Both the position numbers and the translations under genes were made by a program. From NCBI GenBank assembly GCA_022701985.1, contig JAKONK010000016.1, positions 1 to 36,440 on the forward strand: a stretch of DNA of 36,440 nt, written 5' to 3'. The notes under the pieces were generated by a model that saw only the letters and a program-made list of their open reading frames with translations, searched no databases and was not told the origin of the DNA. Positions 19,494 through 29,409 of this stretch are shown here, piece by piece. This stretch comes from Actinomycetales bacterium. Lineage in GTDB: Bacteria > Actinomycetota > Actinomycetes > Actinomycetales > Quadrisphaeraceae. Numbering within the stretch: position 1 is the stretch's first letter; each line of letters starts with the position of its first letter.

Positions 19494-21242
19494 TCAGCCG
19501 TTGACGCCCGGCGGGGTGCCGATGATGCACAGCGCCAGCGTCTTGCCCGTCTCCGGCTGGGCCTGCACCTCGCGCTCGACGAGCACGCGCCCGTCGGCGT
19601 CCTTGATGCGGCAGCCGACGGTGCCCTGGCCGTCCTGGCTGTTGACGGCCACGTACCAGCCCGGCCAGGCCGCGGACCCCTCCATGGTCTTGGTGAAGGT
19701 CGAGCCCAGGTCCGTGGAGGTCTCGCGGGAGTCGGCGGTGCCCAGCTCGACGTAGGTGTTCTTCGCGGTGCCGAAGCCCTCGTAGGTGACGTCGCCGGTG
19801 GGGATCAGCGCCGCCGGCGCGGCGGAGGCGCTGGCGGCGGGCTCGGCGGCCGGAGCGCTGGTCGCGCCAGCGGCGGGCGCCTGCTCGGCGGCGGCGGTGT
19901 CGCCGGCCGCGGCGCCACCGGCGGCCGGGGCCGCGGCGTCTGCGGTCGCCTCGTCCTGCGCCGCCTCGGCGGGCGGGGTCGCGGTGTCCTGGGGAGCGGG
20001 CTCGGTCGTCCGCTCGGGCGCCGCTGCCGGGGTGCTGCCGCCGGTGGCGGCGGTGAGGAGGGTCGAGGGCAGCTGGCGGGCCTGCGGTGACAGGGCTCCG
20101 AGCCCGACGGCCACGACGAGGGCCGCGGCGGCCGCCAGCAGGCCCACGGGCAGGCCCAGGGCGCGGCGCTGGTGCCAGCGGCGCGGGGCCGGGGTCGCGC
20201 CGGTGCGGGCGTGGCGGGTGGCCGGACCGGTGGTCCGGGCTGCGGAGCCGGCAGGGGTGCGAGCGGTGGTGCGGGTCGTGGGGCGGCCCGTGACCCGGGT
20301 GACCGCCGCGGTGGCTCCGGCGGATCCGGCGGCCGCGGGGGTCGCGGGGGTCGCGGGGGTGGTGGTCGTGGCAGCGGCGGTGCGCAGGGCCGCCAGGTCG
20401 GCCGGGGCCAGGGGCGAGGTGCGGACGGGCCCCGGGCCGGCGACCGGGCCCTGTGCGGGCGTGGGGCTGGAGGTGGGGCTGGAGGTGGGGCTGGAGGTGG
20501 GGCTGGAGGTGGGCAGCAGGGCGGCGGCCGGCACGACCACCGAGGAGCTGCCCGTGGTCGCCCGGCGCACCTCCTGCTCGCGCAGGAGCGCCGCGACCTC
20601 GGAGGCCGGGGGCGGGGGCGGCAGCTCGGCCTCCCGGCGGGAGCGGCGGGTGGGGACCGGACCGGTGGTCCAGGAGGGCTCGCGGGCCGGCGCGGGGGCG
20701 ACGACGTCCAGGGGGCCCGAGATCGCGGGCGCTGAGCGGCCGCGCGGCACGAACGCCGGGGTCATCGGCTCCGACGGCGCGTCGAGGTGCTCGGTGATGC
20801 TGCGGGCCAGCGCGCGGGTCAGCGGGGCCGCCGAGGTGGCCAGGGCTGAGCGCGTGGGGGTGTCGGACAGCGCCGGGAAGCTCTTCCACGCCATCGTGTC
20901 GCCGGCGAGGACGGCGGGCTCGTCGAGGGCGGAGGGCCGGCGCAGGGCCGCGCGGTCGCGGCGGCTGGGCAGCTGCGCCGCGGGCAGCGCCGGGCCCAGG
21001 GCGCCGGGGGCGGCGTGCTGCGCGACCGCCGGCTGCGGCATCACGGGGGTCGCCGGCGCCACCGGGATCGGAGACGGGGTCAGGGGTGCGGCCGGGGCGA
21101 ACGCCGTGGTGGACGCCTGGCGCGGGGCGGCGTGGGCGCTGCGGCGACCCGCGCCGCGCTCCTCGCGCAGCGCTCGACGGCGCTCACCGCCGGCCTGCCC
21201 GGGGGCGGTGCCGTCGGTGCCGTCGGTCCCGTCGCCTGCCAC
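19494..21242 (-). CDS. Large single-pass membrane protein with a C-terminal MmpS-like domain
   Basis: 582-residue protein not matching a family I can name over its full length. About 1-360 is Pro/Ala/Thr/Arg-rich and probably disordered, with a (Ser-Pro-Thr-Ser)n stretch near 245-260. One membrane helix (about 363-385) is preceded by RRWHQRRALG, which by the positive-inside rule puts the N-terminus in the cytoplasm. An Ala/Pro-rich linker follows. The last ~100 residues form a compact, Thr/Ser-rich beta domain: VTYEGFG, AAWPGWYVAVNSQ, VGCRIKDADGRVL, LALCIIGT. This resembles the MmpS fold of actinobacteria, including two Cys that could pair. GTG 21242 lies 8 nt from a CACACT box. Confidence 0.75.
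   Translation of the reverse strand: MAGDGTDGTDGTAPGQAGGERRRALREERGAGRRSAHAAPRQASTTAFAPAAPLTPSPIPVAPATPVMPQPAVAQHAAPGALGPALPAAQLPSRRDRAALRRPSALDEPAVLAGDTMAWKSFPALSDTPTRSALATSAAPLTRALARSITEHLDAPSEPMTPAFVPRGRSAPAISGPLDVVAPAPAREPSWTTGPVPTRRSRREAELPPPPPASEVAALLREQEVRRATTGSSSVVVPAAALLPTSSPTSSPTSSPTSSPTPAQGPVAGPGPVRTSPLAPADLAALRTAAATTTTPATPATPAAAGSAGATAAVTRVTGRPTTRTTARTPAGSAARTTGPATRHARTGATPAPRRWHQRRALGLPVGLLAAAAALVVAVGLGALSPQARQLPSTLLTAATGGSTPAAAPERTTEPAPQDTATPPAEAAQDEATADAAAPAAGGAAAGDTAAAEQAPAAGATSAPAAEPAASASAAPAALIPTGDVTYEGFGTAKNTYVELGTADSRETSTDLGSTFTKTMEGSAAWPGWYVAVNSQDGQGTVGCRIKDADGRVLVEREVQAQPETGKTLALCIIGTPPGVNG
20464..20511. repeat. 12-bp tandem repeat, four units, inside the MmpS-like gene
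   Basis: Four exact copies of GGGCTGGAGGTG. Read on the minus strand they encode (Ser-Pro-Thr-Ser) repeats in the cytoplasmic disordered region. The GGGCTGG core and 12-bp period match the array at 15469-15540 in an unrelated gene. Confidence 0.92.
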
Positions 21243-21389: not shown

Positions 21390-21860
21390 TCAGAGGCGGC
21401 GGCGGTCCTCGGAGACGTCACCCACGTGGACGTCGACGGGGAAGCCGCCCGCGGAGCCGTCCTCGCCGAGGACCTCGACGAGGACGCGCCCGACCTCCTG
21501 GCGCACCTCCTCGGCGACCTCGACGACGTCCGCGCCGAAGGCCACCACGAGGGTGGTGCGGACGGCGGTGAGGCGGTCGTCGTCACCGGTCTCGAAGACC
21601 ACCCGGGTGGGTGCGGCGTCGGGCAGCGGCTCCAGCGCGGTGCGCACCACGTCGGTGAGCACGTCGGTGGACACGGAGAAGCGGCCCAGCTCGTGCTGGG
21701 CGGACACCGTGCGGGCGGGACGGACGGCCGCCAGGGCGGCGTCGACCACGCGCTGGCGCACGCGGACCCAGCCCTCGTCGGTGTGGAGGCGGAGCGCCTC
21801 GGCGGCGCGGGCCAGCGGGTCCGCCGCCTGCGGCGCCACCTGCTCCTCGGGCACGCTCAT
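21390..21860 (-). CDS. Asp23/Gls24-like protein co-encoded with an ECF sigma factor
   Basis: 156-residue soluble protein. The second half resembles the Asp23 fold: TRVVFETGD, then TLVVAFGADVVEVAEEVRQEV and PVDVHVGDV. This parallels DITLIAEYG ... VNIEVSDV in the Asp23 protein at 22609-23052. The first half (helical, LARAAEALRLHTDEGWVRVR) is not typical of Asp23. Its ATG at 21860 overlaps the sigma-factor stop by 4 nt (ATGA), the position where an anti-sigma factor gene is often found. It has no membrane segment and no His-x3-Cys-x2-Cys zinc motif, so it is not a classical zinc anti-sigma. A sigma-modulating or envelope-stress role is inferred only from position. Confidence 0.75.
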   Translation of the reverse strand: MSVPEEQVAPQAADPLARAAEALRLHTDEGWVRVRQRVVDAALAAVRPARTVSAQHELGRFSVSTDVLTDVVRTALEPLPDAAPTRVVFETGDDDRLTAVRTTLVVAFGADVVEVAEEVRQEVGRVLVEVLGEDGSAGGFPVDVHVGDVSEDRRRL

Positions 21861-22447
21861 CTCCAGTCCTCCAGCAGGGTCGTGAGGGTCGCTCGGGCAC
21901 GGGACAGGCGCCCGCGGACGACGTCGGGGGTGGTGCGGCCGACCTCCGCCACCTCGGCGTACGACAGGCCCTCCACCTCCTTGAGGATCCACGCGGAGCG
22001 CTGTCCGTCGGGGAGCCGCCGCAGCGCGGCGTCGAGGGCCTCGACGAACCCCTGCATCTCCACGACGCGCGCCGGGTCCTGTCCGGGACCGGTGGCGCGC
22101 CGGGCGAGCACCTCGTCATCGACCGGGGCGGCGGTCTTCTTGAGCTGGCGGCTCTGGTGACGCCGCACCGCGTGGGTGACGAGCGTGAACATCCACGTGC
22201 GGACGCTGGAGCGGCCGCCGAACCCGGACAGGCCGCGCCAGGCGTCGGCCATGGCGTCCTGGAGGCAGTCGGCGGTCTCGCTCGGGTCGTCCAGCATGCG
22301 CGAGGCGTAGCGGTGGAGCGCGGGGCCGTGGCGGTCGACCAGCTCGGTGAACGCCCGGCGGTCGCCGAGGCCGGCCCGCCGCGCCAGGACGTCGTCGTCG
22401 AGCTCGTCGACGACACCCCCTCCGGGTGCTGATCTTCCATCGCGCAC
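21857..22447 (-). CDS. ECF-type RNA polymerase sigma factor
   Basis: Group-4 sigma-70 factor of 196 aa. Region 2 (about 20-95) includes LGDRRAFTELVDRHGPALHRYA, the core-binding/-10 segment ETADCLQDAMADAWRGLSGF and SVRTWMFTLVTHAVRRH. Region 4 (about 138-190) has LRRLPDGQRSAWILKEVEGLSYAEVAE followed by the recognition helix TTPDVVRGRLSRARATL. The GTG at 22447 is the only start that keeps region 2 intact with a short lead. A TGTGAT hexamer 11 nt upstream might be its -10. It is divergent from the Asp23 operon and translationally coupled to an Asp23-like gene, so it plausibly controls that envelope-stress operon (inference). Confidence 0.93.
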   Translation of the reverse strand: MRDGRSAPGGGVVDELDDDVLARRAGLGDRRAFTELVDRHGPALHRYASRMLDDPSETADCLQDAMADAWRGLSGFGGRSSVRTWMFTLVTHAVRRHQSRQLKKTAAPVDDEVLARRATGPGQDPARVVEMQGFVEALDAALRRLPDGQRSAWILKEVEGLSYAEVAEVGRTTPDVVRGRLSRARATLTTLLEDWR

Positions 22448-22491
22448 GACACGAAGAGATCACAGGCCCCCCACCCCTGCCACCGCAACGG

Positions 22492-22507
22492 TGTGATGCA
22501 GGTCACA
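22492..22507. promoter_or_regulatory. Perfect Crp/GlxR-type operator (TGTGA-N6-TCACA)
   Basis: TGTGATGCAGGTCACA is an exact match to the cAMP-receptor-protein consensus half-sites with a 6-bp spacer; symmetry extends one base further on each side (22491-22508). It lies in the 161-bp spacer between the sigma-factor gene and the Asp23 operon, so cAMP-Crp (GlxR in corynebacteria) could control either or both. Recognition of this motif by actinobacterial Crp is established; its use here is inferred. Confidence 0.7.
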
Positions 22508-22608
22508 CGAGGAGGACCGTGACGAACCCGCCCCGGCTGACTCTCACCCTCCGTCGAACGCACCAGCCCGGTGCGCTCCACCGACCCCGACCGACGAGGA
22601 GGGACACC

Positions 22609-23052
22609 ATGTCCCAGACCACCACCGCCGTGGCCACCAAGAGCACCGCCCTGACGAGCACGCAGGGCTCCACCTCGATCGCCGACGCGGTCGTCTCCAA
22701 GATCGCCGGCATCGCCGCCCGCGAGGTCACCGGCGTGCACAACCTCGGGGGCGGCGCCTCCCGCGCCGTCGGCGCCCTGCGCGAGCGCATCCCCGGCGCC
22801 ACCACCAACCACTCCCAGGGCATCTCCGTCGAGGTCGGCGAGAAGCAGGCCGCCGTCGACATCACCCTGATCGCCGAGTACGGCGTGGCCATCGCCGACC
22901 TGGCCGCCGGTGTGCGCCGCAACGTCATCACCGCCGTCGAGCGCATGACCGGCCTGGACGTGACCGAGGTCAACATCGAGGTCAGCGACGTCTTCATCCC
23001 CTCCGAGGACGGCGACGACGAGCAGCCGGCCCGCCAGGCCCGGGTCCAGTGA
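22609..23052 (+). CDS. Asp23/Gls24 family envelope stress response protein
   Basis: Canonical Asp23-domain protein (147 aa), first gene of the plus-strand operon. Seen: SIADAVVSKIAGIAAREVTGV, then NLGGGASRAVGALRERIPG, GISVEVGEKQAAVDITLIAEY, a helix with LAAGVRRNVITAVERMTGLDV, and the closing strand VTEVNIEVSDVFIP. In Gram-positive bacteria Asp23 coats the inner face of the membrane, tethered by AmaP, and two AmaP-like genes lie downstream. ATG 22609 follows an ACGAGGAGGGACACC ribosome site. A second in-frame GTG at 22519 also has a strong GAGGAGG site and would add 30 basic residues. The ATG fits the family better. Confidence 0.93.
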   Translation: MSQTTTAVATKSTALTSTQGSTSIADAVVSKIAGIAAREVTGVHNLGGGASRAVGALRERIPGATTNHSQGISVEVGEKQAAVDITLIAEYGVAIADLAAGVRRNVITAVERMTGLDVTEVNIEVSDVFIPSEDGDDEQPARQARVQ

Positions 23053-23059
23053 TCCTCGG

Positions 23060-23446
23060 ATGACGCCGAACACCTCCCCCACCCCGTCCGGCGCGAGCGC
23101 CGAGGTCGTGGGCGGCGAGGTGGTCACCGAGCGCGTCGAGGGCGTCGCCGAGGGCTCCGTCGTGGAGCCCGTCGACGTCGTCGCCCGCGCGGTGCTGGCC
23201 GTGCCCGGCGTGCACTCCCTGCACGCCGGGCTGGCCGGCTCGGCCGCCACCTTCCTGCCCGGACGCCGCGTCGCGGGCATCGCCCTGCGCGAGCGCGGCA
23301 CCGAGGTCCACGTCGTCGTCGAGATCGGCGCCGACGTCCGTGCCACCGCCGCGGCGGTCCACGCCGCGGTCACGGCGCTCGGGACCTCCACGGCCCCCCA
23401 GCCGGTGCACGTCCACGTCGAGGACCTGGCCGCGCCCCGCGCCTGA
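23060..23446 (+). CDS. Divergent Asp23/Gls24-like protein
   Basis: 128-residue protein 7 nt after the first Asp23 gene. A Thr/Ser-rich lead of about 35 residues precedes an Asp23-like core: VVARAVLAVPGVHSLHAGL, FLPGRRVAGIALRERGTEVHV, VVEIGADVRATAAAVHAAV and the closing strand VHVHVEDL. It keeps the order of strands and helices but lacks the conserved YG and the longer helix of the canonical member. It probably forms mixed assemblies with the other paralogues (inference). ATG 23060 has only a weak ribosome site and is likely coupled to translation of the preceding gene. Confidence 0.82.
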   Translation: MTPNTSPTPSGASAEVVGGEVVTERVEGVAEGSVVEPVDVVARAVLAVPGVHSLHAGLAGSAATFLPGRRVAGIALRERGTEVHVVVEIGADVRATAAAVHAAVTALGTSTAPQPVHVHVEDLAAPRA

Positions 23447-23492
23447 GCACACCCCCCACCACGACCACCCGAACTGCCGAAGGAGACCTCCC

Positions 23493-23684
23493 ATGTCCCC
23501 CGCCACCCCCTACTCCTGGATCGGCCTGCTGGCCGGTCTGCTGCTGGCCATCGCCGGTGCGGTCGGCGGTGCCGGAGCCTTCTTCGGCGCCCTCGTCCTC
23601 GGCGCGGTCGGCTGGGCCGTGGGCGCCCAGGCCGAGGGCCGCATCGACCTGGTGTCGGCCCTGAGCCGCCGCAGCCGTGGCTGA
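23493..23684 (+). CDS. Small DUF2273-like membrane protein
   Basis: 63-residue protein that is almost entirely membrane segments: SWIGLLAGLLLAIAGAVGG and AFFGALVLGAVGWAVGAQ form a two-helix hairpin, followed by a short polar tail DLVSALSRRSRG. The length, two-helix Gly-rich pattern and position in an Asp23 operon match the DUF2273 small membrane proteins, which occur with Asp23 and AmaP in firmicutes and actinobacteria. ATG 23493 follows a strong AAGGAGACCTCCC ribosome site. The next gene starts 8 nt inside its 3' end, so the two are translationally coupled. It may help anchor or organise the Asp23 layer; this is inference. Confidence 0.82.
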   Translation: MSPATPYSWIGLLAGLLLAIAGAVGGAGAFFGALVLGAVGWAVGAQAEGRIDLVSALSRRSRG

Positions 23685-24081
23685 GGCGACCGCTGCCCGC
23701 GACGCCCGCGAGCAGCAGCTGGGAGCGCCCGCCGAGCGCGGTGCGCTGCACGTCGCCGACAGGGTGGTGCTGGCGATCGCCCGCGCCGCCGCCCTGCGGG
23801 TGCCCGGCGTGGCCCCCACCTCCGCCACCTCCGGCCTCATCAGCTCGGCCGTCGGCCGCGACCTGCCCCGCGCCTCGGCGCAGGTGGCGGGCTCGCGGGC
23901 CCGCGTCGAGCTCCAGGTGGCCTCCGTGTGGCCCCACCCGGCGGCCCAGGTGGCCGCCGGGGTGCGCGAGGCGGTGACCGCCCAGCTGCAGCAGCTGGCG
24001 GCCGTCCGCGCCGACTCCGTGTCCGTGACCGTCGACGCCGTCGTGCGTCCCGACCGCCCCGAGCGAGCGAGGGTCCAGTGA
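23677..24081 (+). CDS. Asp23/Gls24-like protein, third paralogue of the operon
   Basis: 134-residue protein with an Asp23-type layout: LHVADRVVLAIARAAALRVPGV, a variable loop, SRARVELQVASVWPHPAAQVA, the helix AAGVREAVTAQLQQLAAVRAD and the closing strand SVSVTVDAVVRP. The usual YG after the strand is replaced by WPHP. GTG 23677 overlaps the DUF2273-like gene by 8 nt, and its own stop overlaps the next start by 4 nt (GTGA). Three divergent Asp23-like proteins in one operon, plus a fourth beside the sigma factor, suggest specialised subunits rather than simple dosage. The individual role is not known. Confidence 0.82.
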   Translation: MAEATAARDAREQQLGAPAERGALHVADRVVLAIARAAALRVPGVAPTSATSGLISSAVGRDLPRASAQVAGSRARVELQVASVWPHPAAQVAAGVREAVTAQLQQLAAVRADSVSVTVDAVVRPDRPERARVQ

Positions 24082-24695
24082 GCCTCACCACCGAACGCCC
24101 CACCTCCACCCCGACGACTCCGACGGCGCCGGCGAGCGGCCCGACCCGGCTCCCGCCGGCGAAGCTCCCGACCGGCCCGGGCACCATCGGCTGGCTCGGC
24201 CCGGTGCTCGCCCTGCTGCTCGTGGGGGTCGCCGTGCTCGTGGGCCAGGACGCGTGGGTCCGCCTGCAGGGCGGGTCGACCACCTGGCTCGGGAGCGCCA
24301 CCAGCGCCCTCGACGGGCTCGCCCCGAGCGCGGCCGTCGCCGCGGTCGGCGTCGTGGTCGCCCTCGTCGGCCTGTGGGCGGTGGTCGCGGCGCTCAAGCC
24401 CCGTACCCGTGACGCCCTGCCCCTGGCCGGCACCAGCGGCGCGCACCTGCGCACCGCTGACGTGGCCCGGCTCGCCTCCGGCGCCGCCGACCAGGTCGAC
24501 GGCGTGCTCCGGGCTCGCTCCAGCGCCCGCCGCCGCTCGGTGACCGTCGACGTCACCACCACCGCCGCCCGCGGCGGTGCCGCGGACGGCGTGGCCGACC
24601 GCGTGCGCGCCCGCGTCGAGCACGCCCTGCGGGCGCTGGAGACCCCGCCCCGCGTCAAGGTCCGCACCACCGCCTCGAAGGGAGACGACCAGTGA
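24078..24695 (+). CDS. AmaP-like membrane anchor, DUF6286 type
   Basis: 205-residue membrane protein. A Pro/Thr-rich cytoplasmic lead of about 40 residues is followed by two membrane helices: WLGPVLALLLVGVAVLVG at about 45-62, and AVAAVGVVVALVGLWAVVAAL at about 88-108. The C-terminal cytoplasmic domain resembles the AmaP/DUF6286 domain, with ADVARLASGAADQVDGVL, SVTVDVTTTAARG and VEHALRALETPPRVKVRT, itself an Asp23-like alternation of helix and strands. AmaP-type proteins tether Asp23 to the membrane. GTG 24078 overlaps the upstream stop by 4 nt, and the end overlaps the next gene by 4 nt. Assignment to this family is by pattern, not by search. Confidence 0.8.
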   Translation: MSLTTERPTSTPTTPTAPASGPTRLPPAKLPTGPGTIGWLGPVLALLLVGVAVLVGQDAWVRLQGGSTTWLGSATSALDGLAPSAAVAAVGVVVALVGLWAVVAALKPRTRDALPLAGTSGAHLRTADVARLASGAADQVDGVLRARSSARRRSVTVDVTTTAARGGAADGVADRVRARVEHALRALETPPRVKVRTTASKGDDQ

Positions 24696-25273
24696 GCCGC
24701 AGCGTCCTCGGCTTCGACCGCCTCGCGGCCCTCGTGCTCGGTCTCGTCCTCGTGGCCGCCGGAGCGGCAGCCGCCGCCTGGGGCCTGGGCCAGCTGACCC
24801 GGGTGTGGGCCGGCGCCCCGCAGTCGCTCAGCACCGCCGGCGCCGGTGACGTCTACGGCCAGTCGTGGTGGCCGGGTGCGGCCGCCGCAGCCGCCGTCGT
24901 CCTCGCCCTCCTGGGCCTGTGGTGGCTCCTCGCCCACGTGCCGCGCCGCTCGACCGGGCCGCTGCGCCTGGCCGGCTCGGACCGCTCCGGCGCCCTCGCC
25001 GTCGACGGCAGCTCTGCGGCAGCAGTCGCCGCCGACGTGCTCACCGAGACCCCCGGCGTGCGCTCCGCCTCGGGCCGCGTGGTCAGCGACCGCGGCCAGC
25101 TCGTGGCCGAGATCGACGTGACCGCCGAGCCCGACGCCGACCTCGCCGAGGTCGCCGCCGCGGTCGACGCGACCGGCGCCCAGCTGGCGCAGGTCATCGG
25201 CCGCGACGACCTGCGCGGCCGGGTGGCCGTGCACGTCGCCCGCCGCCAGCGCCGGGGCAGCCGGGTGCACTGA
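24692..25273 (+). CDS. Second AmaP-like membrane anchor, last gene of the Asp23 operon
   Basis: 193-residue protein with the AmaP layout: an N-terminal helix (ALVLGLVLVAAGAAAAAWGL), an external loop with VYGQSWWPG, a second helix (AAAAVVLALLGLWWLLAHVP) and a cytoplasmic domain carrying LAVDGSSAAAVAADVLTETP, then QLVAEIDVTAEPDADLAEVA and VAVHVARRQRR. The basic C-terminus could contact membrane lipids or an Asp23 partner. GTG 24692 overlaps the preceding stop by 4 nt. The pair of AmaP-like proteins in one operon is unlike the single AmaP in staphylococci. A strong hairpin 23 nt downstream ends the unit. Confidence 0.82.
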   Translation: MSRSVLGFDRLAALVLGLVLVAAGAAAAAWGLGQLTRVWAGAPQSLSTAGAGDVYGQSWWPGAAAAAAVVLALLGLWWLLAHVPRRSTGPLRLAGSDRSGALAVDGSSAAAVAADVLTETPGVRSASGRVVSDRGQLVAEIDVTAEPDADLAEVAAAVDATGAQLAQVIGRDDLRGRVAVHVARRQRRGSRVH

Positions 25274-25506: not shown

Positions 25507-25592
25507 GCGCCGAGTCCGTCGTGCTGCTGCTCCTCGCGCTCGCGCTGGCCGGCTACCTGCTGACCGCCCTGCTGGACCCGGAGCGCTTCTGA
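25503..25592 (+). CDS. kdpF: KdpF, small subunit of the potassium-importing ATPase
   Basis: 29-residue membrane peptide that stabilises the KdpFABC complex. It has one hydrophobic helix (VVLLLLALALAGYLLTALL) and the family ending DPERF. Its start overlaps the preceding peptide gene by 4 nt, and its TGA shares one base with the kdpA ATG (TGATG). Too short for most automatic gene callers, but size, motif and position are characteristic. Confidence 0.92.
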   Translation: MSAESVVLLLLALALAGYLLTALLDPERF

Positions 25593-27261
25593 TGGGCGGC
25601 CTGTCAGACCCCGCAGCCGGCTTCCTCACCATCGCCGCCCTCGTGGCGGCCCTGGTCCTGGTGCACGCGCCCCTGGGCGACCTCATGGCCCGCGTCTACA
25701 CCTCCTCGCGGCACCTGGGCGCCGAGCGGCTCCTCTACCGGGTCGCCGGCGTCGACCCCGACGCCGAGCAGCGCTGGCCCGTCTACGCCCGCGCCGTGCT
25801 GGGCTTCTCCCTCGTCTCCGTGCTGCTGCTCTACGCCCTCCAGCGGCTCCAGGGCCTGCTGCCGCTCTCGCTCGGGTTCCCGGGCGTGGCGCCGCCCACC
25901 GCCTGGAACACCGCCGTCAGCTTCGTCACCAACACGAACTGGCAGTCGTACTCGGGCGAGTCGACGATGGGGCACCTGGTCCAGGCCGCCGGCCTGGCGG
26001 TGCAGAACTTCGTCTCGGCCGCCGTCGGCATGGCCGTCTTCGTCGCCCTCGTCCGCGGCTTCACCCGCAGCCGCACCGACAGGATCGGCAGCTTCTGGGT
26101 GGACCTCGTGAGGACCTGCGTCCGGATCCTGCTGCCGCTGGCCCTCGTGGCCGCCGTCGTCATGCTGCTCGGCGGGGTGGTGCAGAACCTCGCCGGTCCG
26201 ACGGCGGTCACCACGGTCGCCGGGGGCACCCAGACCATCACCGGTGGGCCGATCGCCTCCCAGGAGGCCATCAAGGAGCTGGGCACCAACGGCGGCGGCT
26301 TCTTCAACGCCAACTCCGCCCACCCCTTCGAGGGACCGACCGCCTGGGTGAGCCTGTTCCAGGTCTTCCTCCTGCTGGTCATCCCCTTCTCCCTGCCGAG
26401 GACCTTCGGCCGGCTCGTGGGCGACAGGCGCCACGGCCTGGCCGTGGTCGGCGTCATGGGCCTGCTGTGGCTGGGCTCGGTGGCCCTGGCCGTCTGGGCC
26501 GAGGTCGCCGGCTCCGGTGCTGCGCCGCAGGCCGCGGGGGCAGCGATGGAGGGCAAGGAGGTCCGCTTCGGCGAGGTGCTCTCGGGCCTGTTCGGGGCGT
26601 CGACCACCGCGACGTCGACGGGAGCCGTCAACAGCTTCCACGACTCCTTCACCGCTGCCGGCGGCGGTGTGACGATCCTGAACATGATGCTCGGGGAGGT
26701 CTCCCCGGGGGGCACGGGATCCGGGGTGTACGGCCTGCTCGTCCTGGCCGTCATCGCCGTCTTCCTCGCCGGCCTCATGGTGGGCCGCACCCCCGAGCTC
26801 CTCGGCAAGAAGATCAGCCGCCCCGAGGTCACCCTCGTGGCCCTCTACGTGCTGGCAACACCCACCCTGCTGCTCGTGGGGGCCGCCCTGACCGCGGGGG
26901 TCCCCTCGCTGCGCGAGGCCTCGCTGCAGGACTCCGGGGCGCACGGCCTGTCCGAGGTGCTCTACGCCTACGCCTCGGCCGCCAACAACAACGGGTCGGC
27001 CTTCGCCGGCTTCGGCGCCGCCACCGACTACCAGAACACCGCCCTCGGGCTGGCCATGGTCTTCGGCCGGTTCGTCCCGATGCTGCTGGTCATCGCCCTC
27101 GCGGGCCGGCTGGCGTCGCAGGCGCCGGTCCCGGTCACCGCGGGCACGCTGCCCACCCACACCCCCCTCTTCGCGGGTCTGCTCACCGTCGTCGTCCTCG
27201 TGGTCGCCGGCCTGACCTACTTCCCCGCGCTCGCCCTCGCTCCGATCGCTGAGGCCCTCTC

Positions 27262-27265
<4 letters not shown>
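25592..27265 (+). CDS. kdpA: Potassium-transporting ATPase potassium-binding subunit KdpA
   Basis: Membrane subunit that forms the selective potassium pore of the Kdp pump; 557 aa, standard length. It contains the pseudo-fourfold pore-loop motifs: [16 protein letters not shown] at about 110-125, [21 protein letters not shown] split across about 229-250, and [12 protein letters not shown] near 468-480, along with about ten hydrophobic segments. ATG 25592 is fixed by the one-base overlap with kdpF. The 3' end overlaps kdpB by 4 nt. Expression is expected to rise in potassium limitation through the KdpD/KdpE pair encoded downstream. Confidence 0.98.

Positions 27266-29409
<2,144 letters not shown>

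Follow-up and report, generated by a model that had tools for sequence, protein, structure and literature searches.

A divergent ECF sigma factor and a predicted Asp23-like anti-sigma factor beside a conserved Asp23/AmaP operon in actinomycetes

The window, i.e., the whole stretch of 36,440 nucleotides analyzed here, derives from a Quadrisphaera genome whose closest named relative is Quadrisphaera sp. INWT6 (sigma factor 97% identical). Within it, a short transcription unit on the minus strand, composed of an ECF sigma factor gene and a gene that we call S, faces a six-gene Asp23/AmaP operon on the plus strand. The intervening stretch carries a palindrome and a two-block promoter-like motif.

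21390–21860, minus strand: S, Asp23-like (18.5 bits against a Pfam cut-off of 28); shares ATGA with the end of the sigma gene
21857–22447, minus strand: ECF sigma factor (Sigma70_r2 51.7 bits, Sigma70_r4_2 43.7 bits); start codon uncertain
22492–22507, no strand: Crp-type palindrome TGTGATGCAGGTCACA, an exact TGTGA-N6-TCACA
22518–22524, plus strand: -35 block CGTGACG of the predicted ECF-type promoter, a cross-validated motif (84 of 90 loci)
22540–22547, plus strand: -10 block ACTCTCAC of the predicted ECF-type promoter, beginning 22 nt after the -35 block
22609–23052, plus strand: A1, canonical Asp23 (PF03780, 105 bits)
23060–23446, plus strand: A2, divergent Asp23-like protein (19.5 bits, under the cut-off; profile comparison with A1 88%, E 2.8e-6)
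23493–23684, plus strand: DUF2273-like small membrane protein, a hydrophobic 63-aa ORF (PF10031 in 24 of 26 relatives)
23677–24081, plus strand: A3, Asp23 paralogue (33.3 bits, over the cut-off; profile comparison with A1 98%)
24078–24695, plus strand: DUF6286 membrane protein, AmaP-related (PF19803, 57.3 bits; two hydrophobic segments)
24692–25273, plus strand: AmaP-like membrane anchor (NF033218, 41 bits, under the cut-off of 55; two hydrophobic segments)

The first-pass annotation of this DNA had described four Asp23-like proteins, two anchors and a DUF2273-like peptide opposite an ECF sigma gene, most with overlapping ends. All of these are present, and four gene pairs do overlap, by 4–8 nt (sigma/S, A3/DUF6286 and DUF6286/AmaP by 4 nt each, DUF2273/A3 by 8 nt). 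Its single array, however, has to be divided: three Asp23 paralogues and both anchors stand in one operon, while the fourth Asp23-like gene, S, is part of the sigma transcription unit. No Rfam family was matched in the window.

Assignment of the individual proteins to families is of unequal strength. A1 and A3 pass the curated cut-off of the Asp23 family, whereas A2 and S score below it and are termed Asp23-like by profile–profile comparison only, in which S is related to A1 with 95% probability. The DUF6286 protein lies above its cut-off of 35 bits and is in turn related to the AmaP-like protein (97% probability in profile–profile comparison). The latter is called AmaP-like as its match to the AmaP model (E 1.6e-10) stays under the curated cut-off, but all of its 26 relatives match that model. 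Similarly, the window copy of the 63-aa ORF is itself unmatched by the DUF2273 model that recognizes most of its relatives, and it has a single long hydrophobic stretch. As no profile similarity of the DUF6286 or AmaP-like protein to A1 was found, we do not claim that their soluble parts are Asp23-like. A sequence search of the PDB found no Asp23-family structure. The sigma factor itself contains regions 2 and 4 only, both over cut-off, as is typical of ECF sigma factors, and scores 79.4 bits with TIGR02937 (cut-off 42.9).

This arrangement is not restricted to the window. The sigma gene and S are divergent from the gene set Asp23–Asp23-like–DUF2273–Asp23–DUF6286–AmaP in all 80 loci that have both sigma and A1; S is detectable in 75 of these and all six operon genes occur in the same order in 41. 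Because loci were collected via the sigma factor or S, these figures describe sigma-linked loci and not Asp23 operons at large. They span, among others, the genera Kineococcus, Cellulomonas, Isoptericola, Oerskovia, Phycicoccus, Rhodococcus, Nocardioides, Serinicoccus, Mycolicibacterium, and Streptomyces. In a sample of 394 genomes from the class, at least 22 had a match to a profile of S. This is a lower bound, as the profile is biased towards window-type S and no more than nine candidates were scored per genome; the S alignment held no conserved stretch usable for a genome scan. The six-gene set is present in three copies in the own genome, namely in the window and on two further contigs (C174 and C55), and a lone A1-type gene is found on a third contig (C8). 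No sigma gene was detected beside the sets on C174 and C55. The "multiplication" of Asp23 paralogues remarked on earlier is an old, widely conserved gene set and no peculiarity of this genome.

The intergenic stretch between sigma and A1 contains the block CGTGACG followed by a second block that starts 22 or 23 nt later (ACTCTCAC in the window, CGACCAAC or TGTCCAAC elsewhere), which is the geometry of ECF promoters. In five-fold cross-validation, the motif exceeded the 99th percentile of shuffled sequences in 84 of 90 loci. The exact two-block motif occurs at only two sites in the own genome, in the window and on C8, each time ahead of a canonical Asp23 gene. When Quadrisphaera was excluded from training, the model placed the window promoter barely over its shuffles (15.6 versus 15.0 bits); the same model found the motif, accompanied by the palindrome, at another A1-type locus in six of six Quadrisphaera genomes, there with scores higher than any shuffle. 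The motif is absent before most sister copies that lack a sigma gene. Among the copies in the own genome, the composite of promoter and palindrome is missing at both C174 and C55: C174 has no promoter motif, and C55 has a fair promoter-like match without palindrome, though no sigma gene was detected beside it. Furthermore, the -10 block varies between sigma clades. This co-variation is consistent with recognition by the linked sigma factor and falls short of proof, as neighbouring elements are inherited together. The earlier proposal that the array is switched on by its own sigma factor is nevertheless supported at the level of sequence, by a conserved ECF-type promoter that tracks the sigma gene.

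An alternative explanation is that the operon is mainly driven by Crp or a housekeeping promoter, that the ECF sigma factor has other targets and that the shared intergenic region is coincidental. Conservation of the Crp-type palindrome would fit this explanation, as would the circumstance that other targets of the sigma factor were assessed by motif matches only. We consider it improbable given that two blocks with ECF-type spacing of 22/23 nt are found in nearly all loci, that the exact motif is confined to Asp23 loci in the own genome and that the blocks differ between sigma clades. A larger sigma regulon was not apparent: a search of the own genome with relaxed criteria, which was pattern matching only, returned just two convincing sites, and a match with two mismatches on another contig (C124) falls within a coding region. 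General autoregulation of the sigma gene through the A1 promoter motif was likewise dismissed, as the motif precedes sigma in only 5 of 90 loci; in three Streptomyces loci (L123, L130, L135) its presence also before the sigma gene suggests autoregulation there. No support was found for a conserved 5' hairpin downstream of the promoter (mean z -0.39). In Rhodococcus genomes with two units (L080/L106, L078/L120), the -35 blocks differ between the two Asp23 operons, which possibly keeps the paralogous sigma factors apart. One genome of the Kineococcus group (locus L189) has a further Asp23-like gene downstream of sigma and S, with a palindrome and a promoter-like motif of its own.

Upstream of the promoter, 63 of 78 loci carry a palindrome GTGA-N6-TCAC (one mismatch allowed) no more than 48 nt ahead of the -35 block, as compared to 1.3% in shuffled sequences. 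In 56 of these 63, the centre of the palindrome lies at a distance of 17 or 18 nt from the -35 block. The window palindrome is the sole exact TGTGA-N6-TCACA in the genome, and the stretch GTGATGCAGGTCAC fits the consensus GTG(N)6GNCAC reported for Crp of Streptomyces coelicolor (PMC10033298). Only one cNMP-binding regulator was found in the genome; it is an orthologue of Mycobacterium tuberculosis CRP (270 bits) with the same recognition helix, and we regard the palindrome as a candidate Crp site. The combination of palindrome and -35 block was found at 23 sites across the 394 genomes; five of these also have a good -10 block, and all five lie before A1-type Asp23 genes. Known actinobacterial Crp/GlxR sites (PMC10033298) share the consensus, while the candidate site described here stands at a fixed distance from an ECF-type promoter. 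Crp probably co-regulates the A1 promoter from this palindrome.

The role of S is central to any interpretation of the locus. The overlap of its reading frame with the sigma stop codon measures 10 nt in 76 of 91 loci and 4 nt in a further three (79 of 91 together), with mostly other short offsets in the rest. S orthologues of Streptomyces and Pseudonocardia have an extra N-terminal part with an invariant C..H-x3-C-x2-C (16 and 19 sequences). They thereby resemble Class I zinc anti-sigma factors, for which Hx3Cx2C serves as signature (PMC7406223), in the motif, the upstream Cys and a helical N-terminal part. They differ from that class in their Asp23-like second domain, and the Quadrisphaera S has no zinc part at all: the Hx3Cx2C signature is absent from the window S, which is therefore no Class I zinc protein by this measure. 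Pfam anti-sigma models matched neither the window S nor zinc-type S. Nearly the entire window S, however, aligns in profile comparison to the part of zinc-type S that follows the zinc signature, which indicates homology. In an AF2 model of the window S, a single long helix at the N-terminus is followed by an alpha/beta core (pLDDT 88), the predicted structure of one zinc-type S has helices at 26–93 followed by an alpha/beta core (pLDDT 80), and the core elements have the same order in both. Fold searches with both models returned mostly cytosolic domains of cation transporters and similar alpha/beta folds, and barely covered the N-terminal parts; no Foldseek match was below 0.001, and no anti-sigma structure was among the matches listed. 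We draw no conclusion on function from these folds. In the sigma tree, loci with zinc-type S fall into one fully supported clade, with one row in which S is probably misframed.

In the literature, Asp23-family proteins beside sigma factors of groups ECF286 and ECF292 are predicted as anti-sigma factors in the relevant passages of PMC8999054, which cite the 2021 ECF classification. The present loci share with these groups an ECF sigma factor that adjoins a soluble Asp23-family protein predicted as anti-sigma factor; the window sigma factor agrees with them in its Asp23-type neighbour. Promoter, target operon, Crp site and zinc fusion are features of the present loci that those passages do not describe.

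Together, orthologues and gene position suggest that S is most likely an anti-sigma factor. The first-pass annotation had instead counted S among the structural subunits; on that model, all four Asp23-like proteins would build a heteromeric layer and the locus would encode no dedicated sigma inhibitor. Indeed, S is Asp23-like by profile comparison, and that part of the earlier description holds; no recognizable anti-sigma domain was found in the window S either. Yet S always accompanies the sigma gene, with which it overlaps, and was never found in sister clusters without sigma, and two large groups of its orthologues carry the zinc anti-sigma signature. A role of S as layer subunit is therefore not favoured and, in our estimation, unlikely, if somewhat less so than an operon driven chiefly by Crp or a housekeeping promoter. 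Even less credible is the combination of S as a positive partner of the sigma factor (co-activator or layer adaptor) with a palindrome bound by a regulator other than Crp. A single exact palindrome per genome is indeed few for a global regulator, and zinc ligands are missing from the window S, but Crp reportedly accepts degenerate sites as well (PMC10033298) and the zinc signature of S orthologues points to inhibition.

In sequence terms, the loci share a conserved sigma/S unit, an ECF-type promoter before the Asp23 operon and a Crp-type site. We infer from them that the sigma factor uses the A1 promoter, that S inhibits the sigma factor and that Crp co-regulates, and propose, with a probability of about 0.65, that the locus is a conserved envelope-stress unit in which sigma drives the Asp23/AmaP operon with S as anti-sigma factor and Crp as co-regulator. 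Briefly, the ECF sigma factor would transcribe the divergent operon from the ECF-type promoter just before A1, with probable co-regulation by Crp from the upstream palindrome. S, co-translated with the sigma factor, would act as soluble anti-sigma factor. Together with the DUF2273-like protein and the two two-helix anchors (DUF6286 and AmaP), the three Asp23-type subunits may form a membrane-associated layer, the state of which S might, speculatively, sense via its Asp23-like domain. A1, A2 and A3 may be mixed in this layer, and the first-pass annotation had suggested that their different motif losses reflect distinct positions. A disturbed or under-supplied layer would then pull S off the sigma factor, and the operon would be induced until balance is restored. 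A more specific version, which we put forward only tentatively, is that this family-related anti-sigma factor reads assembly directly: free sites in the layer would recruit S by way of its Asp23-like domain and free the sigma factor, which would make the locus a self-balancing circuit for a protein coat at the membrane, gated by cAMP-Crp.

In Staphylococcus aureus, AmaP anchors filament-forming Asp23 to the membrane, and the cell wall stress response is induced when either gene is lost (PMC6954212). A loop that senses assembly is plausible in this light. The staphylococcal system also has Asp23 and an AmaP-type anchor in one operon (PMC6954212). In contrast, the actinomycete loci comprise three Asp23-type genes, two anchors, a dedicated ECF sigma factor and a probable anti-sigma factor. 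Proteins of the Asp23 family occur widely among Gram-positive bacteria, and their mode of action is unsettled (PMC6954212). With a dedicated switch, a probable inhibitor and a defined promoter, the actinobacterial Asp23 system becomes testable, and ECF groups that are so far predicted and uncharacterized gain a likely target. Synthesis could be coupled to assembly in a simple manner if inhibitor and structural protein belong to one family. The most interesting part of the locus is its regulation, on which the first-pass annotation had touched but with S placed on the structural side.

Two further features flank the locus. A low-complexity ORF of 582 aa (window 19494–21242, minus strand) contains TSSP repeats, had no Pfam match and is common to the closest relative. 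Downstream of the Asp23 operon (window 25592–29409) lie genes for a KdpA-like protein and a KdpB-like P-type ATPase. Three Rhodococcus loci (L080, L082, L083) also have KdpA/KdpB relatives near the sigma locus, there on the opposite side.
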